DNA of 32,461 nt from Oscillospiraceae bacterium (GCA_902776845.1 CACYRM010000064.1:1-32461); one strand, 5' to 3'. Shown: positions 17,235-26,314, counted from the first letter of the stretch. A program made the numbers and translations. The notes: generated from the letters alone by a model not told the origin.

Positions 17235-18539
17235 TCAGATCTCATTAACGGTTCCGATAAATATAGGAGCCATTGTCTCATTGTCGATGATCGCATAAAC
17301 GAACGGTCTGTCGCACATTACGGTGCGGTATTCCTTCGGGTTAGCAATGGCGCCCGCGCCGTCAACTCTTACCACCGTAACAGCTGCTGCCTTCGTACCG
17401 TTTGCGTCGACTTCAATATGAGTCTTGTGTATGACCTTTGCGATATAAAGATCGCCGGGCTTGCCTGCAATGCCGGAAAGGTCTGCCGTCTCGGGATCAA
17501 ATGCATTCTTGGCGCCGAGATTTTTGAGAGTGTCATTCAGCGTGATATCAAAATCAGACTTGAATACCGGCATGCCCGTATAAACGTCATACTCATAGGT
17601 AAGGCTGCCTATAAACTTCTCATAGTCGGCAGAAGTGAAATTCTTTGCAAACTCATTGGCACTGACGGATTCATCAGAAGGAAGGATGGCCAGGAAGGAA
17701 TACTGTCCGCCTTCATAAGCCTTCATGAAGCCTGTGGCCTTTTCGCTCTCGAAATAAGCAGTCTCGGCACCGTAGAGGAAATCCCCTTTCTGCGTGGTGC
17801 CGTCCCACTTCGTAAACTCGGCTTCATGTACCTGGTTATCTTCATAAGGCTCTTCCCATTTGCCGTCAAAAGATATTGCATTCACAAGTACCATAACAGT
17901 CATGGGATCCAGGCTGCTGATGACCTTTTCGATCATATGGTCTGTATGCTCATAGACCCAGGAGTTGATCTCATCGGGAGTCTTGCTGTCAAAATCCCTT
18001 ATCCTGTATTCGGCGTCAAAGGTTTCCTTTATATAATCGATGTATTCGAGATTGACAGCGTCACCCAGGAGTTTTCTGTTGCTCCAGACAGCGTTCGCGC
18101 ATGAGAAATCGACCTTCTGGGCACCATTGATCTTATCCATTATAGAAGCTGCATAAGCCTGCTGGTTAAGAGGTCCCTCCCCGACTGCGAAAAGATCAGT
18201 AAGCTGTCTTAACGATTCATCCTTCGCGCCTGCAGCAACCATATCGAGCGCCAGCATTATTGAAGCGGGTGAGATCATTACATTTCCCTCACCGCCGTAA
18301 TCCTTTACCGTCTGGCTCAGAAGATCAAAACAGTATCTCCTGTACTGCTCATCCATTACCTCCCGGTCATACCCGGCATTCTTGACCTCGTTGAAATTGA
18401 TATCGGCCTTGATCTCCGGATCGTTCTTCAGAGCCTGAGTCGCTGCGGGCTTTGAAGTTGCGGTGCAGCCCCCGAGAAGTATCGAGGAGGCCATAACTGC
18501 GGCCATTATCTTTATATCTTTATTTGAACAGATCTTCAT
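17235..18539 (-). CDS. Lipoprotein serpin 2
   Basis: 434 residues. The start ATG has GGAGGGA 8 bases upstream. The signal peptide ends in LLGGC with Cys25, at the same position as in the downstream serpin. The proteins align end to end and share long identical blocks such as DEQYRRYCFDLLSQTV, so they arose by tandem duplication. Hinge GTKAAAVTVV again favours an inhibitory serpin, but the rest of the loop differs fully (RVDGAGAIANPKEY): by counting, P1 is near Ala, suggesting an elastase- or subtilisin-like target rather than a trypsin- or chymotrypsin-like one. Role by family: suicide inhibition of serine or cysteine proteases at the cell surface, for example host or competitor enzymes. A strong promoter with TTGACC and extended TATAAA lies just upstream. 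Confidence 0.93.
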   Translation of the reverse strand: MKICSNKDIKIMAAVMASSILLGGCTATSKPAATQALKNDPEIKADINFNEVKNAGYDREVMDEQYRRYCFDLLSQTVKDYGGEGNVMISPASIMLALDMVAAGAKDESLRQLTDLFAVGEGPLNQQAYAASIMDKINGAQKVDFSCANAVWSNRKLLGDAVNLEYIDYIKETFDAEYRIRDFDSKTPDEINSWVYEHTDHMIEKVISSLDPMTVMVLVNAISFDGKWEEPYEDNQVHEAEFTKWDGTTQKGDFLYGAETAYFESEKATGFMKAYEGGQYSFLAILPSDESVSANEFAKNFTSADYEKFIGSLTYEYDVYTGMPVFKSDFDITLNDTLKNLGAKNAFDPETADLSGIAGKPGDLYIAKVIHKTHIEVDANGTKAAAVTVVRVDGAGAIANPKEYRTVMCDRPFVYAIIDNETMAPIFIGTVNEI

Positions 18540-19430: not shown

Positions 19431-20294
19431 TCAGGCCAGTCTTGCATCAGTGCGTGCCTTGTCCTCTTTCCAGGCGTTCTTCTCTTTTCTGTATTTCCTG
19501 ATTACGATAATAAAGATTACCGCAAAAACTACCAGTACGATAACTAACGGCAGGAAATCAACAATACAGTACTTGATCTTTCCTCCGAGTGACGTAATAA
19601 TCCTGCCTTGAGCATCTTCAACCGCAACCTGGAATGCGTCATTTATAGCTACACCACAGCTCTGCCCCTTGACTCTGTCAGTCTCTACCGTGTTTACGAA
19701 CTGGTAGATCATGTGCGAAGTAAAGAAACCATTAGTGGATTTACCCTTGATGGAAGCCCATGTGTATTCAAGATTATCTAAATTTCCCTGTCTGAACTGT
19801 TCAGCTTCATCCTTTTTAACAGAGAAGACAACTACAAAATGCTTTCCGTCTTTGAAGTTGTCCAGATAAGTCTGGTTGGTAAACGTTTTTACATCATAAT
19901 AATCGTTTTCCCAGTCTTCATCATAAACAGTGTAGATTACAGGGCATATACCGGTAAGATCATAAAACTCATTAAGAGTTTCTGTAAGCGGTTCCATGTT
20001 GCTTATCAGGCCGGCATTATCATAAACGGCCGGTGTGTAATTGCCTGAAAGCTTAAAAGGAGCATTTACGAATGTACCGCGCCAGATTGGAACGATTATC
20101 ACCAGCGCCAGAATTGTTAATGCTGCTAACGTTATCAGGGTTATCTTTAAAGGCTTGGATTGTTCCTTGATATAACCGTCTGTTCCGTCATTGGTCTTCT
20201 CATCCAGCTGGCGGCCTGCAACAGCGTAATAACGCTCCGGTCCACGCCAATGGAATTTTGTCTTGTTCTGATCATTGTTGTATGTGTTTGACAT
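19431..20294 (-). CDS. TPM-domain membrane protein (YdjH-like)
   Basis: 287 residues from ATG 20294, which has AAGGGGG about 9 bases upstream; an in-frame upstream Met pair (20318) lacks a site. Layout: a polar cytoplasmic start of about 45 residues, helix at about 48-70, an outside domain beginning AVYDNAGLISNMEPLTETLN, then helix at about 240-265 and a basic tail. The V-Y-D-x-A-G-L-I-S opening and alternating strand/helix pattern match the TPM fold (TPM_phosphatase). TPM proteins occur with rhodopsin-like, PspA and SPFH partners; in B. subtilis a TPM protein (YdjH) works with YdjG at the membrane as part of the PspA system (from memory). The gene has its own promoter (TTGAAA, 17 bases, TAAAAT) and terminator. 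Confidence 0.75.
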   Translation of the reverse strand: MSNTYNNDQNKTKFHWRGPERYYAVAGRQLDEKTNDGTDGYIKEQSKPLKITLITLAALTILALVIIVPIWRGTFVNAPFKLSGNYTPAVYDNAGLISNMEPLTETLNEFYDLTGICPVIYTVYDEDWENDYYDVKTFTNQTYLDNFKDGKHFVVVFSVKKDEAEQFRQGNLDNLEYTWASIKGKSTNGFFTSHMIYQFVNTVETDRVKGQSCGVAINDAFQVAVEDAQGRIITSLGGKIKYCIVDFLPLVIVLVVFAVIFIIVIRKYRKEKNAWKEDKARTDARLA

Positions 20295-20360
20295 ATTATC
20301 TACCCCCTTGATCATCACAGGGACCAGCCCTTAACTGCCCTGCGAATTACCTTTTCCTGA

Positions 20361-20381
20361 AATTCCGTTCTTACCGGAATT
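20361..20381. repeat. Leader inverted repeat of the TPM gene
   Basis: AATTCCG, 7 bases, CGGAATT, inside the roughly 100-base leader between the promoter and the TPM start. It could form a 7-pair hairpin; no riboswitch class was recognised. Confidence 0.4.
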
Positions 20382-20401
20382 CCTGTTCTTATTCCAAAAA
20401 A

Positions 20402-20430
20402 ATTTTAGAATTTTCCCGTGCGGTTTTCAA
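20402..20430 (-). promoter_or_regulatory. Promoter of the TPM gene
   Basis: Minus strand TTGAAA, 17 bases, TAAAAT. It gives a leader of about 100 bases with an inverted repeat. Confidence 0.65.
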
Positions 20431-20493
20431 TATAAATCGTACCGGGAAGCGCGGAAACACGCGTGTAAGACGCCTGTCTTGGCTAAAAAGAAA

Positions 20494-20521
20494 GGCTGCC
20501 TCAGTTTTTTTTGAGACAGCC
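20494..20521 (-). terminator. Intrinsic terminator after the SPFH gene, shared-stem family copy B
   Basis: Minus strand GGCTGTCTCA, 8-base A-rich loop, TGAGGCAGCC, then TTTCTTTTT. It has the same 10-base arms, with the same wobble position, as the pnt terminator. Confidence 0.9.
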
Positions 20522-20548
20522 GCTATATTTTAAATCTAAATTTGCGTT

Positions 20549-21859
20549 TTACTGAACAGGTCTTGCTATGCCGCAGTCAGGGCAGAATCTGGAATTTAAG
20601 GTCTTGCCGCATGACGGACAATTCCATACGTCCTCAGCGGGTGCGGGAGCAGCAGGTGCAGCGGGTGCAGCAGGAGCTGCAGGCGCGCCGGTCTGTGTTC
20701 CGCCGGCAACAACATTGCCGAAGCCTTCACCGACCTTCTGTGACTCGCCCATGATCGGAGCCATAGCGTCTCTTGTCATGTTTATAACGCCGCCCATAGC
20801 GCCCAATGTAACGCCGAGGCTTGCAACATCACCGATTCCGCCGGCAGCACCGCCACCGCTGCCTCCTCCGGTGATACCGTTCTGCATTGCTTCGAGACCG
20901 ACCTGACGTGCTGTCTCGTCGCGGTATGTGTAACCCTTCATCTGCATCTCGGCAGCCTCTGCCTCAGCCTTCATCTTATATGCTTCAGCTTCTGCCTGGG
21001 CCTTGATACGTATAGCTTCAGCGTCTCCCTGTGCGTTTACGGCCTTGAGCTGTGCTTCGGTCTGGGCCTCGACGATCTTTCTCTGCTGTGCGGCTTCAGC
21101 CTCAGCCTTTCTGACTTCCTCTTCACGGACCTTCAGAGTTTTATCGGCAAACTGCTGCTTGAGACGCATGAAATTCGGATCGTCATCAGGAGTTACGATG
21201 GAAGTTACATAGAACTCGGGCATCGTAAGACCGTATTCTTCAAGGGTTGTATTGATGTCTGTCATCAGGTTCGCGGACAATACATCAAGATATGCATCGA
21301 TCTCAAGAATGTTGAGATTCTGTTCCTTGATTATGCGCGCGAGATTTGCCTTGACCTTGTTAATGATCAAAGCCCTGAACATGCCTGTGCCGTAGGATTT
21401 TCCCTCGCCTGTGACATCGCTCTGGACAAGACCTTCGGTCGTTCCGACGAGCTTTAAGACCAACTTGCTTGCATCGGTAACTCTCATATTGAAGTTGCCG
21501 GATGCCCCGATCTCAACGTGAAGTCCTGATGCGGGGTCGAAAAGCCTTACCTTGCTGTCAGTACCCCATCTGATACCCATCTGGGTGATCATGTTGATGA
21601 AGTAGACTTCGCAGTGGAAAACATTTACGCCGCCGGTTCCGAGCTTCATGTAGTCACGGACCTTCGGAATGTTATTCGTAACGAGCGTGTGCCTGCCTGC
21701 CTTGAACTGATCGAAAACCTTACCGTCACGGAAGAAAAGCGCTTCCTGTGTCTCATGGACGATCAGCTGCGAGCCGATGGTAAAATCTTCTTTCTCGTGC
21801 TTGTGAGCCAGTACGTCATTACTGCCTTCGTACTTGATTACACTAATAGCTTCAACCAT
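20549..21859 (-). CDS. SPFH-domain protein with C-terminal zinc ribbon (YdjI-like)
   Basis: 436 residues. It has no signal peptide or membrane helix. Residues about 30-230 form an SPFH/band-7 domain of the type often annotated as virion core protein (YdjI family). Residues about 235-310 are a heptad-rich Ala/Glu/Lys coiled coil, then a Gly-rich patch, an Ala-Pro repeat linker (about 390-412) and a zinc ribbon, NCPSCGKTLNSRFCPDCG, at the end. Family role: scaffold oligomers on the inner membrane face in envelope-stress responses. Neighbours fit: the next upstream gene, 17 bases away on the same strand, is a zinc-ribbon membrane protein (YdjG-like), and a TPM protein lies downstream. No PspA gene is visible, though the Bacillus operon has one. 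Confidence 0.85.
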   Translation of the reverse strand: MVEAISVIKYEGSNDVLAHKHEKEDFTIGSQLIVHETQEALFFRDGKVFDQFKAGRHTLVTNNIPKVRDYMKLGTGGVNVFHCEVYFINMITQMGIRWGTDSKVRLFDPASGLHVEIGASGNFNMRVTDASKLVLKLVGTTEGLVQSDVTGEGKSYGTGMFRALIINKVKANLARIIKEQNLNILEIDAYLDVLSANLMTDINTTLEEYGLTMPEFYVTSIVTPDDDPNFMRLKQQFADKTLKVREEEVRKAEAEAAQQRKIVEAQTEAQLKAVNAQGDAEAIRIKAQAEAEAYKMKAEAEAAEMQMKGYTYRDETARQVGLEAMQNGITGGGSGGGAAGGIGDVASLGVTLGAMGGVINMTRDAMAPIMGESQKVGEGFGNVVAGGTQTGAPAAPAAPAAPAAPAPAEDVWNCPSCGKTLNSRFCPDCGIARPVQ

Positions 21860-21876
21860 TTCCTAATCTTTCCTTT

Positions 21877-22608
21877 CTATTTATTCTTCTTAGTTATCTG
21901 TTCCGTAAATGACGCGAAAAGGATAAACATTACTATCGGACCTACTATCGCGATCACGACCGCAAGGGAACTCTTCATATGGAAACCATATGCCAGGATC
22001 GAATAAATGATAAGCGGTGTTGCCGCAAGAAACGATATGATCTTGATGATGACCGATATCACTCCGCCCCTGTAAAGGACATATCCCAGTCCCGCCGAAC
22101 CTAAAAGGAACAGTATGATGCATACTGCCCAGGGGCATCCGAACTGCTCTCTTAAGAACAATATCTCCACGATCACATCAGCATCCCTGTAACCGGGGAC
22201 CTTTGCCAGCTCGCGCACAGCGCTGCTGTAGGATCTTTTCTCATAATATGTCTTACCCTTGATGTAACAGCCAAGCAGTTCGGTCTGCTTGACACCTTCC
22301 TCGCAGACATTGATCAGATCCGCAGAGACATGATCGTTAAATCTGTTGCATTCCATAATGGCGGTCTTGAACAGGAGCTTCGCCTCATTAGCCGAAGTCG
22401 CCTTTGTCCCTGTCTCGACAATGCTGTTCGCATTGTTGATGTTTGCAATTATCTTGGAATACTTTGCATAATCGGGAATGATGTCCGCTAATGACCATCT
22501 GTTCCCGCAGTTCATGCATGCGCATGTACCGGCGAGATAATCGTTCCTGATATCTCCTCCGCATACTTTGCACTTTAAGGATACCGGTGTAGCTTTTACA
22601 TCTGGCAT
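21877..22608 (-). CDS. Zinc-ribbon membrane protein (YdjG-like)
   Basis: 243 residues. The N-terminus holds a ribbon with CKVCGG (Cys13, Cys16) and CMNCGNRWS about 15 residues later. Then follows a helical region of about 100 residues with a tetratricopeptide-like stretch (YYEKRSYSSAVRELAKVPGY), and three hydrophobic helices from about residue 155 to the end, closing with Lys-Lys-Asn-Lys. The start ATG follows GGGTAGGGATAGAGA; an extended -10 (TGATATAAT, minus strand) stands about 55 bases upstream. It leads the SPFH gene by 17 bases and is surely in the same operon. In B. subtilis, a TFIIB-type zinc-ribbon membrane protein (YdjG) next to TPM and SPFH genes helps bring PspA to the membrane (from memory); a similar anchoring task is an inference here. 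Confidence 0.75.
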   Translation of the reverse strand: MPDVKATPVSLKCKVCGGDIRNDYLAGTCACMNCGNRWSLADIIPDYAKYSKIIANINNANSIVETGTKATSANEAKLLFKTAIMECNRFNDHVSADLINVCEEGVKQTELLGCYIKGKTYYEKRSYSSAVRELAKVPGYRDADVIVEILFLREQFGCPWAVCIILFLLGSAGLGYVLYRGGVISVIIKIISFLAATPLIIYSILAYGFHMKSSLAVVIAIVGPIVMFILFASFTEQITKKNK

Positions 22609-22659
22609 TCTCTATCCCTACCCTCATTCAAACGTGCGCCTTGAGCGCGCCCGGATGTA

Positions 22660-22668
22660 ATTATATCA
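22660..22668 (-). promoter_or_regulatory. Extended -10 of the YdjG/YdjI-like operon
   Basis: Minus strand TGATATAAT; the -35 is weak. It lies between the terminator of the upstream gene and the zinc-ribbon gene. Confidence 0.5.
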
Positions 22669-22727
22669 AATATTTTTTCCGTCTGCGATGTATTGGGCTG
22701 TATCATTTTCGGGTTGTACGAAAAAGA

Positions 22728-22754
22728 GGTGTCTCATTCAAATAATGAGACACC
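22728..22754 (-). terminator. Intrinsic terminator, shared-stem family copy C (diverged)
   Basis: Perfect 11-pair stem GGTGTCTCATT / AATGAGACACC with a 5-base loop. On the minus strand TCTTTTT follows. It ends the zinc-ribbon/Yip1-like gene at 22783. The core GTCTCA/TGAGAC is shared with the other three. Confidence 0.9.
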
Positions 22755-22782
22755 CCGTAATTATCTTTTATCAGAAATCTGT

Positions 22783-23646
22783 TTAGAAATAGTTTGCTAT
22801 AAATCCCGTGATTGCCACACAGATCACAAGCACAAATCCTTTCTTGTTTCCGGTAAGCTTTGTCTCCGCACTCATGCCCTCAAACAGCATCAGGAGATAA
22901 TATGCGTAAGCTGCGATCGTAAAGACAGATCCGAACCTGATGTAAGGGATAAGACCCATATATGATCCGAGGAAATCAGAAACGATAAAAGCAGGAGCCG
23001 TAGCCATAGCCGAGATGGCAAGGAGTCTGGCGAAAGACCACTTCTGCTTGAGGATCAGGCCTGCAAGCATGAAGACTCCGGCACATCCGAATACGCGGAC
23101 CGCATAGTAGATCATCGGGAAGAAGAAATCCTTAACGATCTCTGCGCCAAGACTGTTGAAATAATACTTGCCGTACTGTGCGTAATGGATAAGGTCGATT
23201 GACATTGATGAGATAAAACCGACCATCCAGCAGACAACTACAACGATGCCCGCAAGGAAAATGGCATTCCCGACCCTGTCATACTGAGGGGCGATCTCTG
23301 CAGGACCTGTAACAGGATGTATGGCTGCATGGAAAAGATTTTTGAAATGCTGGCCGAAAGAAACAGATGAAGATGCCTGTTCCGGTGATCCCGCTCCGTT
23401 ATTTGGCGCGGACCTCTGCGCCGGCTGAGGCGGCGGTACTATGGGAGCTGCAACAGGCTGGGGCTGAGGTATTGGTTGAGGTGCAGGCTCGGGAACCGGA
23501 GCCGTCTGATAAACGGGCTGTGGAGCCGGTTGTGGAGCTGTTGGTTGGGGAGCAGTTTGTCTGCCGGCTGATCCGAATGCCATTCCGCATCCGCTGCAGA
23601 AAGCAACGCCATCCGGGTTTCCTTTTCCGCAATTAGGACAAAACAT
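22783..23646 (-). CDS. Zinc-ribbon, proline-rich linker, Yip1-like membrane protein
   Basis: 287 residues from ATG 23646, which follows AAAGGATATTGAT; codons upstream are in frame but lack a site. Residues 1-22 are a compact zinc ribbon, MFCPNCGKGNPDGVAFCSGC. Residues about 30-85 are a Pro/Gln/Ala/Val linker with repeated P-x-P units. The rest has five to six membrane helices with the low-motif look of the Yip1/YIF1 superfamily. Family knowledge: such ribbon plus Yip1 proteins are common in Clostridia and unstudied. The ribbon is presumably cytoplasmic, making it a membrane-bound protein- or nucleic-acid-binding head. It is transcribed toward the YdjG/YdjI-like operon but separated from it by a terminator and a promoter. 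Confidence 0.75.
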   Translation of the reverse strand: MFCPNCGKGNPDGVAFCSGCGMAFGSAGRQTAPQPTAPQPAPQPVYQTAPVPEPAPQPIPQPQPVAAPIVPPPQPAQRSAPNNGAGSPEQASSSVSFGQHFKNLFHAAIHPVTGPAEIAPQYDRVGNAIFLAGIVVVVCWMVGFISSMSIDLIHYAQYGKYYFNSLGAEIVKDFFFPMIYYAVRVFGCAGVFMLAGLILKQKWSFARLLAISAMATAPAFIVSDFLGSYMGLIPYIRFGSVFTIAAYAYYLLMLFEGMSAETKLTGNKKGFVLVICVAITGFIANYF

Positions 23647-23771: not shown

Positions 23772-24623
23772 ATGAAAAACAACAGTCAGACAGCCATAGT
23801 GGCTATACTCATAATAGCGGCATTTGTTATCGGTATCTTTTGCGGATATAAACTTAACGAATATGGCAATGAGTCCGGCAGCAGCACATCAGTTTCGCAG
23901 ATCTCAACATCCGTTTCTTCATCCGGAATGTCATCTTCTGCTTCAGTCACAACGTCCGTGGAGACTTCCGTTTCCGAATCCGAAGAGAGCCTGCCTGAAG
24001 AGAGCTTCAATTATCTTGCCATCGGAAACAGCATCACGCGTCACGGGATCACGGATTTCTGGTGGAACTATATCGGAATGGCCGCTTCTGACGCAGATCA
24101 CGATTATTATCATATAGTTCTCAAGTATCTTGAGGATAAGTACGGGAACGTCACAGGCGAGATCTGTAATTTCTCCGTATGGGAATCGCAGGCTGAAGAC
24201 AGAGACGGGGCCCTGACGGAATACCTTGAGCCTTTCCTGAATCCTGACCTTGATCTCATTACGGTACAGCTGGGCGAGAACGTGGACGATCTGGAGACAT
24301 ATCAGGAGGATTATGTTTCCATGCTGCAGTTTATCCGTTCAAAGGCGCCCAATGCGAGGATCCTTGTAATTGAGGATTTCTGGACCGTCGATGAGCGCTA
24401 TGATATGGAATTTGCCGCCTGCGCGCTTACAGATGCCGAATTTGTTTCGCTGGATGATATAGCAAGCAACGATGAATACTATTGCGGAACCGGAACGACG
24501 GTCTATGACAAATACGGAAATGAATATACCGTTGAACATGACGGAGTCGCAATGCATCCGGGCGATGAAGGCATGGCCGCTATCGCGGAAAGAATAATCT
24601 CAGCACTCGAAAACGGAAATTAA
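23772..24623 (+). CDS. Membrane-anchored SGNH/GDSL-like hydrolase
   Basis: 283 residues. A signal anchor (about 8-27) is followed by a linker of about 50 residues that is mostly Ser, Thr, Val and Glu, then the SGNH domain. Block I is LAIGNSITRHG with the catalytic Ser. Block III reads QLGENVDD: the Gly and Asn are kept, but the usual Asp after Asn is Val. Block V is HDGVAMHPGDEGM with the His. Family role: removal of acyl groups from glycans or lipids; outside the cell such enzymes often deacetylate polysaccharides. The Ser-rich linker suggests the domain stands away from the membrane within the wall. The ribosome site GGGAG is moderate. The gene ends 8 bases from the convergent anti-sigma gene. 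Confidence 0.85.
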   Translation: MKNNSQTAIVAILIIAAFVIGIFCGYKLNEYGNESGSSTSVSQISTSVSSSGMSSSASVTTSVETSVSESEESLPEESFNYLAIGNSITRHGITDFWWNYIGMAASDADHDYYHIVLKYLEDKYGNVTGEICNFSVWESQAEDRDGALTEYLEPFLNPDLDLITVQLGENVDDLETYQEDYVSMLQFIRSKAPNARILVIEDFWTVDERYDMEFAACALTDAEFVSLDDIASNDEYYCGTGTTVYDKYGNEYTVEHDGVAMHPGDEGMAAIAERIISALENGN

Positions 24624-24631
24624 ATCCCCTG

Positions 24632-25603
24632 TTATACTGCGTCTGCCACCCTGCCGATAACCTCTTCAGGCTGGATGTCGGAGAATATGATCAGGTATGT
24701 GCTGCCGTTCTTGGTGAATACGGCTGCGTTCACATCGGCAGAAGTCTCGCCTTCCGCAAGGTCAGCGACATTGACGAATCCACAACGGCAGTATCTGATC
24801 GCATATCCGTCAGGAGTCGTTCCTTCGGAGAGGATGACGATGTCTTCACGTATAACCGTCTTATAGATATCCGTTCCTTCGGGCGCGGTATAGAGAAGGA
24901 CCTTCTCGCCGTCGTTGCCGGTGAATACCTCTTCAATGATATTATCCGCGAACCGGCCTGATCCGGTTCCCTTGAGATCGAAAGGAAGTGCTTTCGCTAT
25001 AGCATCGATGCGGGCATCGCCCATGCCTTCGCTTCCATCAACACTTGACACTGTCGTGGCTTCTGACGCATATGCAGTCTCTGCGGTCAGTGTCCTTCTG
25101 GAACCGTCGGTATCGTCCGCGTTAAAAATTATATCGTTCTTATACTTTTCATCCTCGGTATCTTCCATTTCACCGGCAGCTGCAGGTGACTCCACATAAT
25201 TATCCTGTATACCGGCTGCTGTTGTCTCTGCCGCAGCCTTGTTTATCCATTCATTATGTACATGAACTTCTGACGCGCTCTTCGTGGAAGCGCCAATGTA
25301 ACGGGTTACAAACAGAACACCCATAAGGATGAGAATGACAGCCGCGATCGAAGATATAACTATGACAGGTGTCTTCTTTGCTTTCTTTCTGACCGGAGCT
25401 ACGGGCTGTTCTTCTCTCTGTTCCTTCGGAATACCGGAGACTCTTGCAGACTCCGGTGCCTTTCTGACTTCCGGCCTGTTAACGGATCCCGTACTGCTTC
25501 CCTGTTCCCTGATGGCGGCGGACACGGAACTCATGATCCTTTTCTTCATCTCAGGATCAACAGTTACACTGTTCATGATCTCGTTGTATTTATTCAAAAT
25601 CAT
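24632..25603 (-). CDS. Probable membrane anti-sigma factor
   Basis: 323 residues from ATG 25603, which overlaps the sigma gene stop by 14 bases. GGAGG is only about 3 bases from this ATG, so the in-frame TTG two codons on is also possible. N-terminus YNEIMNSVTVDPEMKKRIMS is of the kind seen in clostridial anti-sigma proteins. A basic patch and one helix (about 78-100) follow, then an outside part rich in Ala, Thr and Glu, and a compact C-terminal domain (about 205-323) with GYAIRYCRC and FTKNGSTYLIIFSD strands, possibly DUF4367-like. No zinc-finger anti-sigma motif (HxxxCxxC) is seen. Role inferred from position and layout: holding the cotranscribed ECF sigma at the membrane until an outside signal is sensed. 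Confidence 0.75.
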   Translation of the reverse strand: MILNKYNEIMNSVTVDPEMKKRIMSSVSAAIREQGSSTGSVNRPEVRKAPESARVSGIPKEQREEQPVAPVRKKAKKTPVIVISSIAAVILILMGVLFVTRYIGASTKSASEVHVHNEWINKAAAETTAAGIQDNYVESPAAAGEMEDTEDEKYKNDIIFNADDTDGSRRTLTAETAYASEATTVSSVDGSEGMGDARIDAIAKALPFDLKGTGSGRFADNIIEEVFTGNDGEKVLLYTAPEGTDIYKTVIREDIVILSEGTTPDGYAIRYCRCGFVNVADLAEGETSADVNAAVFTKNGSTYLIIFSDIQPEEVIGRVADAV

Positions 25604-26246
25604 CCACCTCCTTCAGCATTTCTCTCAGTTTGTCACGGGCGCGCTTAAGATCGGAACGCACCGTTGCCTCGCGTCGCCCTGTAAGCATGGCGATCTCAGA
25701 GGTCTGATAACCTTCCTGATAGAAAAGGTGGATTGCTTCACGCTGGTGAACGGGCAGGGCTCTTACGGCATCCCAGATGGCCTTGTATTCGTCACCGTTA
25801 TTGAGGTCTTCCTGAACTTCGCCTGCGATCTCTTCGTTGAGCTCCATCGTATCGCGGACTTTGTTGTAGTCGATACGGTTTTTCGCAAGATTCGAAGCAA
25901 CACGCATGAGCCATGCTTTTCTGTGTGCCTCACTCTCGAAATCCGGCCTGACGGTAACGAATTTGATCATCGTCTCCTGTAAGATATCCTCCGCGTCCTC
26001 CTTGTTGTGAAGGTAAGAGAGTGCAAGACGCAGGATGGAATCACCATGACGGTCAAGTATCTCTTCCGCTTCCTTTTCTATCTGCCCGTCAGACTTGCGA
26101 TGTGCCCCTGAGGAAGGCACTTCGTCAGATGTATCTGCTTCACTGCGGGAGAGGGTGAACGGATTGTCATCACCCTTGCCCGGCACGGCAAGCAGAATGG
26201 CGAGCTTTCGTAAAAGCGGCAGATTGGCTTCGTAAGTTAATTCCAT
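25590..26246 (-). CDS. ECF-type sigma-70 family factor
   Basis: 218 residues from ATG 26246, preferred because CCAAGGATAAT lies just before it; a GTG at 26276 would add 10 residues without a good site. The first 60 or so residues are a polar, Ser/Asp-rich extension not usual for ECF factors. Region 2 follows: LALSYLHNKEDAEDILQETM, then AWLMRVASNLAKNRI. Region 4 is LPVHQREAIHLFYQEGYQTS, EIAMLTGRREATVRSDLKRA and the closing basic helix. Role: directing RNA polymerase to a stress regulon. The downstream gene overlaps and is its probable anti-sigma. A good promoter (TTGCTT, 17 bases, TATAAT) lies upstream and looks like a housekeeping one, so no self-recognition signature was evident. Confidence 0.93.
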   Translation of the reverse strand: MELTYEANLPLLRKLAILLAVPGKGDDNPFTLSRSEADTSDEVPSSGAHRKSDGQIEKEAEEILDRHGDSILRLALSYLHNKEDAEDILQETMIKFVTVRPDFESEAHRKAWLMRVASNLAKNRIDYNKVRDTMELNEEIAGEVQEDLNNGDEYKAIWDAVRALPVHQREAIHLFYQEGYQTSEIAMLTGRREATVRSDLKRARDKLREMLKEVDDFE

Positions 26247-26314
26247 ATTATCCTTGGCGTTTCTCACCGCTTTCACCCTGAATACAGATGAACCGGTGGA
26301 TTTGTTGCACTCAG

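Follow-up and report, generated by a model that had tools for sequence, protein, structure and literature searches.

The DNA analyzed here, referred to throughout as the window, comprises the 32,461 nucleotides of contig C64 from the genome of an Oscillospiraceae bacterium (G000; 2.6 Mb in 200 contigs, 80% complete), the nearest named relatives of which are Saccharofermentans-type clostridia of the rumen and gut. An initial annotation of positions 19431-23646 described four genes, encoding a Yip1-like ribbon protein, a zinc-ribbon membrane protein, an SPFH protein and a TPM protein, as a stress cluster resembling ydjFGHI of Bacillus from which PspA is absent. All four open reading frames (ORFs) are called, on the minus strand, and the proteins are real and for the most part rightly described. 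In the order of transcription, the minus strand encodes an extracytoplasmic function (ECF) sigma factor, an anti-sigma factor candidate, the Yip1 protein, a ribbon-bearing membrane protein designated here as ZnTM, the SPFH protein and the TPM-like protein (Table 1). Sequence comparison indicates that ZnTM and SPFH compose a predicted two-gene unit, with the Yip1 and TPM-like genes as separate neighbours.

Table 1. Positions of genes and sequence elements at the locus, counted from the first nucleotide of the window (TM, transmembrane).
Feature	Position	Strand	Basis
ECF sigma factor	25590..26276	-	PF04542/PF08281; synteny in most close relatives
Putative membrane anti-sigma factor, one TM helix	24632..25603	-	Position, anatomy, synteny; 14-nt overlap with ECF gene
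Yip1-type membrane protein, N-terminal ribbon, Pro/Ala-rich arm; loosely associated neighbour	22783..23646	-	Domain matches
Predicted intrinsic terminator, 13-bp stem and T run (TTTTT), Yip1/ZnTM gap	22726..22756	-	Terminator scan
-10-like element (TGaTATAAT), promoter-like region before ZnTM-SPFH	22660..22665	-	Conserved in aligned upstream regions
ZnTM (ribbon membrane protein, conserved SPFH partner)	21877..22608	-	Adjacency 29/29, alignment A1, model
ZnTM C4 zinc ribbon (C13, C16, C31, C34 invariant)	22507..22572	-	Homologue alignment
ZnTM 84-bp in-frame loss (28 aa), window copy only	22161..22162	-	Comparison with orthologues
SPFH/Band-7 protein, 436 aa	20549..21859	-	PF13421, tree position, no TM helix by hydropathy
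SPFH C-terminal zinc ribbon (CPSC...CPDC)	20564..20623	-	Sequence; weak DZR/zinc-ribbon matches, residues 413-430
Predicted intrinsic terminator, 10-bp stem, T-rich tail, SPFH/TPM-like gap	20494..20521	-	Terminator scan
Promoter-like site TTGAAA-17-TAAAAT before TPM-like gene	20402..20430	-	10/12 positions; such scans give many chance matches
Protein with a TPM fold flanked by two TM helices; probable ATG at 20294	19431..20318	-	Structure matches, profile

Linkage and transcription units

Within the order, 148 genomes were surveyed, 29 of which carry an orthologous SPFH gene (identity of at least 66%), and at every one of these 29 loci ZnTM is located immediately 5' of SPFH. The pair also stays together at L044 and L050-L054, diverged loci in which all other neighbours are different and no ECF, anti-sigma or Yip1 gene stands beside it. 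A link between SPFH and the TPM-like gene is found in no relative examined.

Predicted transcription signals also divide the locus. A terminator scan returned 13 terminator-like sites against 6.2 expected, and the two strongest fall on gene borders, at 22756-22726 following Yip1 and at 20521-20494 following SPFH. A hairpin equivalent to the former is present in 11/16 orthologous Yip1-ZnTM gaps and is almost absent from shuffles, and one comparable to the latter follows SPFH in 9/24 relatives; the gap between ZnTM and SPFH spans 17 nt and contains no terminator-like break. Because strong predicted terminators follow both Yip1 and SPFH, the four genes, as far as sequence can tell, are not one operon, and the cluster as first described would resolve into three units: Yip1, ZnTM-SPFH and TPM-like.

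Among close relatives, 17 have flanking sequence long enough for comparison, and 16 of these preserve the gene order ECF, anti-sigma, Yip1, ZnTM, SPFH; the sigma/anti-sigma pair was missed in the initial annotation. The arrangement is suggestive of an envelope-stress regulon in which the sigma/anti-sigma pair, the Yip1-ribbon protein, ZnTM and SPFH are jointly ECF-controlled, as the Bacillus pspA-ydjGHI genes are by sigma-W. The ECF pair is indeed syntenic, yet the ECF, Yip1 and ZnTM upstream regions each possess their own conserved, sigma-A-like element of the TATAAT type in aligned relatives, and inspection by eye revealed no AAC/CGTC-type ECF motif shared among them; ECF-type promoters were accordingly rejected for all three genes. 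These promoter sequences, the terminators between units and the persistence of ZnTM-SPFH without the ECF, anti-sigma and Yip1 genes in the diverged loci render joint ECF control unlikely.

The SPFH protein and its membrane partner

The SPFH protein matches PF13421 (Band_7_1) with an E-value of 1.9e-34 and 119.6 bits, over the curated cut-off of 24, lacks a TM helix by hydropathy, and carries an Ala/Pro-rich linker and a C-terminal CxxC...CxxC ribbon. It is, by these features, a member of the YdjI-type family, as initially described. Two CxxC knuckles near the C-terminus are shared by 54/59 SPFH proteins, and three of the other five display a variant ribbon. G000 holds two more PF13421 genes (L176:3155-4258 and L175:2-487), with PspA beside neither.

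ZnTM consists of an N-terminal C4 ribbon, the four cysteines of which are invariant across 22 homologues, a cytosolic part of approximately 100 residues of helices, and TM helices numbering three in the window copy and four in relatives. The difference results from the 84-bp loss, for which an assembly error is a possible cause; the lost segment includes the first TM helix, which membrane-bound orthologues retain. No Pfam family was matched. The initial description of a zinc-ribbon membrane protein holds with respect to the ribbon and the partnership with SPFH; equivalence to YdjG does not, and was rejected, as only the ribbon of about 50 columns aligns to the YdjG profile. In addition, ZnTM possesses one ribbon rather than two and three to four TM helices rather than one, the YdjG set of the present survey (two ribbons, one TM helix) being in line with published YdjG, in which two ribbons and one TM helix accompany a YpeB-related domain with an NTF2-like fold (PMC11237479). 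An MIT-like fold for the ZnTM helices was also considered: a structural comparison matched Vps4/spastin MIT domains and TPR domains (Z 8-9), a result that is uninformative because it ties with designed bundles, and plain Foldseek gave nothing at E < 0.5 for these helices. Separately, a stand-alone, regulator-like protein encoded at L083:664-1353 joins the ribbon and helices of ZnTM, its soluble portion, to a Cro/C1-type helix-turn-helix domain, and many other genomes of the genus give partial matches of this kind.

PspA and the flanking genes

A search of G000 with PF04012 (PspA), in a genome that is 80% complete, returned nothing, confirming the absence noted at the locus. No sampled genome of the family, including 53 of the genus, many of them over 95% complete, contains PspA over cut-off, and only 3/148 genomes of the order do so; the earlier suggestion that PspA may be encoded elsewhere was rejected on these results. 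The search method works, since matches were obtained in B. subtilis and in eight further controls; the control genome of Lactococcus lactis possesses PF13421 and no PspA match. Across 249 genomes sampled from the phylum, 32 PF13421 loci were examined, and PspA stands alongside only four of them (L146, L147, L150 and L151). PspA-less SPFH-ribbon loci are consequently the rule in the phylum, and the absence of PspA here is ordinary.

The protein encoded at 19431-20318 does not match the Pfam TPM model (PF04536), and weak matches are found in 6/19 members of its family. Its AlphaFold domain is nevertheless confident (pLDDT ~90), its 14 best structural matches are all TPM domains or proteins of TPM fold (Z 8.7-14.4, the top match extending over 128 residues), and a profile of its family can be aligned with genuine TPM proteins (95%). 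The protein thus has the TPM alpha/beta fold with a divergent sequence, and the initial designation is sound for fold and fails for the Pfam family. Relatives of this protein occur in 46/148 genomes, every one from a single genus, frequently as multiple copies and at other chromosomal sites; only in G000, among all genomes examined, does one lie beside SPFH. The gene is a genus-specific paralogue outside the ZnTM-SPFH unit. Family members at L085-L100 and L177:4254-5717 are 270-500 aa in length, with several per genome, many beginning MPHSSGGGSHGGGSHGG; among sampled genomes this family is confined to the genus of G000.

In the Yip1 protein, Zn_Ribbon_1 is matched over cut-off (E 6e-7). Together with the ribbons of ZnTM and SPFH, this agrees with the initial count of ribbons in three of the four proteins. 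The Yip1 family itself (PF04893) scores 21 bits in the window copy, below the 28.6 cut-off, while 18/18 orthologues match (best E 1.2e-8). The Yip1 gene is a loosely associated neighbour: it precedes ZnTM solely in close relatives, and by its predicted signals it forms its own transcription unit.

These findings bear on the proposal that the locus is a ydjGHI-type operon, with equivalents of YdjG, YdjI and YdjH, from which PspA has disappeared and to which a Yip1-ribbon protein has been added. The SPFH family is shared, a TPM fold lies next door, and PspA-less SPFH-YdjG-TPM loci are real in the phylum (L155-L157, L159, L165 and L166, and likewise L158 and L160, in which the TPM gene is on the opposite side). 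Those genuine trios, however, are set apart from the window protein in the SPFH tree described below, the window ZnTM has the ribbon alone in common with YdjG, and the TPM-like gene stands behind a predicted terminator and is unlinked in all relatives examined; the linkage survey thus already contradicts the proposal. Descent from such an operon is, on balance, improbable.

Three further observations concern the surroundings. The anti-sigma candidate (24632-25603) gave no meaningful match in family searches. Between the anti-sigma and Yip1 genes, the minus-strand run is broken by a plus-strand gene for a GDSL-type lipase (23772-24623); this gene is not at that place in most relatives, and L039 carries two copies near its Yip1 gene. 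Downstream of the cluster, a serpin lipoprotein is encoded at 17235-18539, where relatives possess tandem serpin pairs or triplets.

Possible partner exchange, interpretation and known systems

Forty PF13421 loci from the phylum and order were surveyed for partners. A same-strand, ribbon-bearing neighbour is present within two genes of SPFH at 30/40 loci, and the ribbon motif occurs in 35/118 near same-strand ORFs vs 5/183 ORFs at least four genes away. The neighbours cluster as YdjG-type proteins, a 4-TM protein, TPM proteins, small ribbon-tailed membrane proteins, and a large ribbon-TPR-TIR protein. A maximum-likelihood tree was built from 59 SPFH domains; the positions of a few long branches are uncertain, and B. 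subtilis YdjI is missing because a plasmid search for the named Bacillus protein gave distant matches only. In this tree, the window protein belongs to a ZnTM clade (100/100) nested inside a 4-TM/ribbon-TPR clade (100/99, 100/97). PspA-linked proteins compose a clade of their own (100/100), and those linked to YdjG and TPM lie past a long, fully supported branch. Partner labels change 11 times on this tree compared to 37.5 times when shuffled: partner type tracks the SPFH tree.

The trio of SPFH-ribbon, 4-TM and ribbon-TPR-TIR genes is found, in that order, at L061:7959-12699, L067:7971-12523, L168:261-7607, L170:2274-6700, L149:1415-7055 and L174:3357-7522. No paper describing it was found, and PADLOC matched neither the window proteins nor these TIR-linked relatives. 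In the TIR part, a Trp-x3-Glu (W235, E239, alignment A5) is invariant, at a position resembling that of the NADase glutamate. Two other neighbourhoods were noted. At L148:580-7487, the SPFH gene stands beside genes for a small protein of 86 aa and for a 1547-aa FtsK/SpoIIIE and FHA protein, which is EssC-like (type VII secretion) and bears a ribbon motif at its C-terminus; at L179:1-7271, in the genus of G000, the SPFH neighbours appear by eye to be 4-TM, ribbon, FHA-like, kinase-like and phosphatase-like.

That the window pair is a reduced descendant of the TIR-linked module, and serves signalling or defence instead of repairing membranes, is very doubtful: the nested position of its clade (100/99), a weak alignment of the ZnTM profile to the ribbon and helical part of the ribbon-TPR-TIR protein (148 columns, 91%) and the presence of TIR_2 in that protein (PF13676, E 3.4e-12, at L168) are set against the lack of any such TIR protein at the locus or in G000, the absence of a PADLOC match to any component, and TM parts of ZnTM and the 4-TM protein that do not align. 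A ZnTM composed of a ribbon-TPR head fused to the 4-TM protein was rejected on the same alignment of TM parts (probability 2.6%).

Taken together, the linkage, signal and tree data are probably best explained by a PspA-independent ZnTM-SPFH two-gene operon that provides an SPFH scaffold anchored by ZnTM. The soluble SPFH protein would most likely oligomerize via its SPFH domain and coiled coil; by analogy with YdjI, YdjG and YdjH, ZnTM may hold the oligomer at the inner membrane face, and the SPFH ribbon tail could dock on ZnTM, on client proteins or on both, yielding a membrane scaffold in which PspA would play no part. A role in envelope stress may be envisaged for the pair. Several points weigh against this explanation. 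The window ZnTM is short of one TM helix; the upstream ECF pair hints at joint regulation, although the promoter comparison does not back it; and 11 further genomes carry ZnTM without an SPFH gene beside it, in two of which no SPFH match was detected at E 1e-10. The neighbours of these lone genes are unrelated in all seven inspected, and ZnTM may, given its occurrence without an adjacent SPFH, have a separate role.

A broader proposal, advanced here as a tentative possibility, is that ribbon-tailed SPFH proteins are a modular scaffold family whose partner is swapped by lineage (PspA/YdjG/TPM; YdjG/TPM; 4-TM and ribbon tail; 4-TM and ribbon-TPR-TIR; ZnTM). The window pair would represent a minimal PspA-free version descended from the TIR-linked branch, and ribbon docking, not PspA recruitment, would therefore be the common ancestral function. 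YdjI is known for bringing PspA to the membrane, and the existence of a PspA-less clade that retains both the ribbon-tailed SPFH protein and a ribbon-bearing membrane partner suggests that such recruitment is one use of a broader scaffold; ZnTM-SPFH is a gene pair in which this idea can be put to test. With a missing PspA being normal for the family, and with the TPM and Yip1 neighbours outside the unit, what most merits following is the exchange of partners along the SPFH tree, the TIR-linked branch included.

Among known systems, there is a likeness to the methanogen 'Meth_adaptin' loci (PMC10936438), in which an SPFH, coiled-coil and ribbon protein likewise occurs in a membrane-trafficking-like gene cluster; these loci are archaeal, have adaptin-like partners and are likened by description rather than sequence. 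Outside the ZnTM clade, the nearest SPFH relatives are those of the TIR-linked loci in Lachnospiraceae and in a sister genus (L061, L067, L149, L168-L170 and L174). These loci share a ribbon and helical partner, but encode a large TIR protein and a separate 4-TM protein where the window encodes one small ZnTM. The PspA-less SPFH-YdjG-TPM loci combine an SPFH-ribbon protein, a ribbon membrane protein and TPM, and differ in having a genuine YdjG, a Pfam-positive TPM and a distant part of the SPFH tree. In B. subtilis pspA-ydjGHI, also termed ydjFGHI, YdjI is likely soluble, requires the membrane proteins YdjG and YdjH for localization and brings PspA to the membrane (PMC8581546). The window locus resembles this system in its TM-less PF13421 SPFH protein with a C-terminal ribbon and a ribbon membrane neighbour (PMC8581546; PMC11237479). 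It is unlike it in that locus and genus are without PspA, ZnTM, with its single ribbon and several TM helices, is distinct from YdjG, the TPM-like gene is unlinked behind its predicted terminator, and the SPFH protein falls outside the PspA-linked clade of a tree built without B. subtilis YdjI. Membership in ydjGHI thus fails, and the analogy holds for an SPFH protein paired with a ribbon membrane partner.

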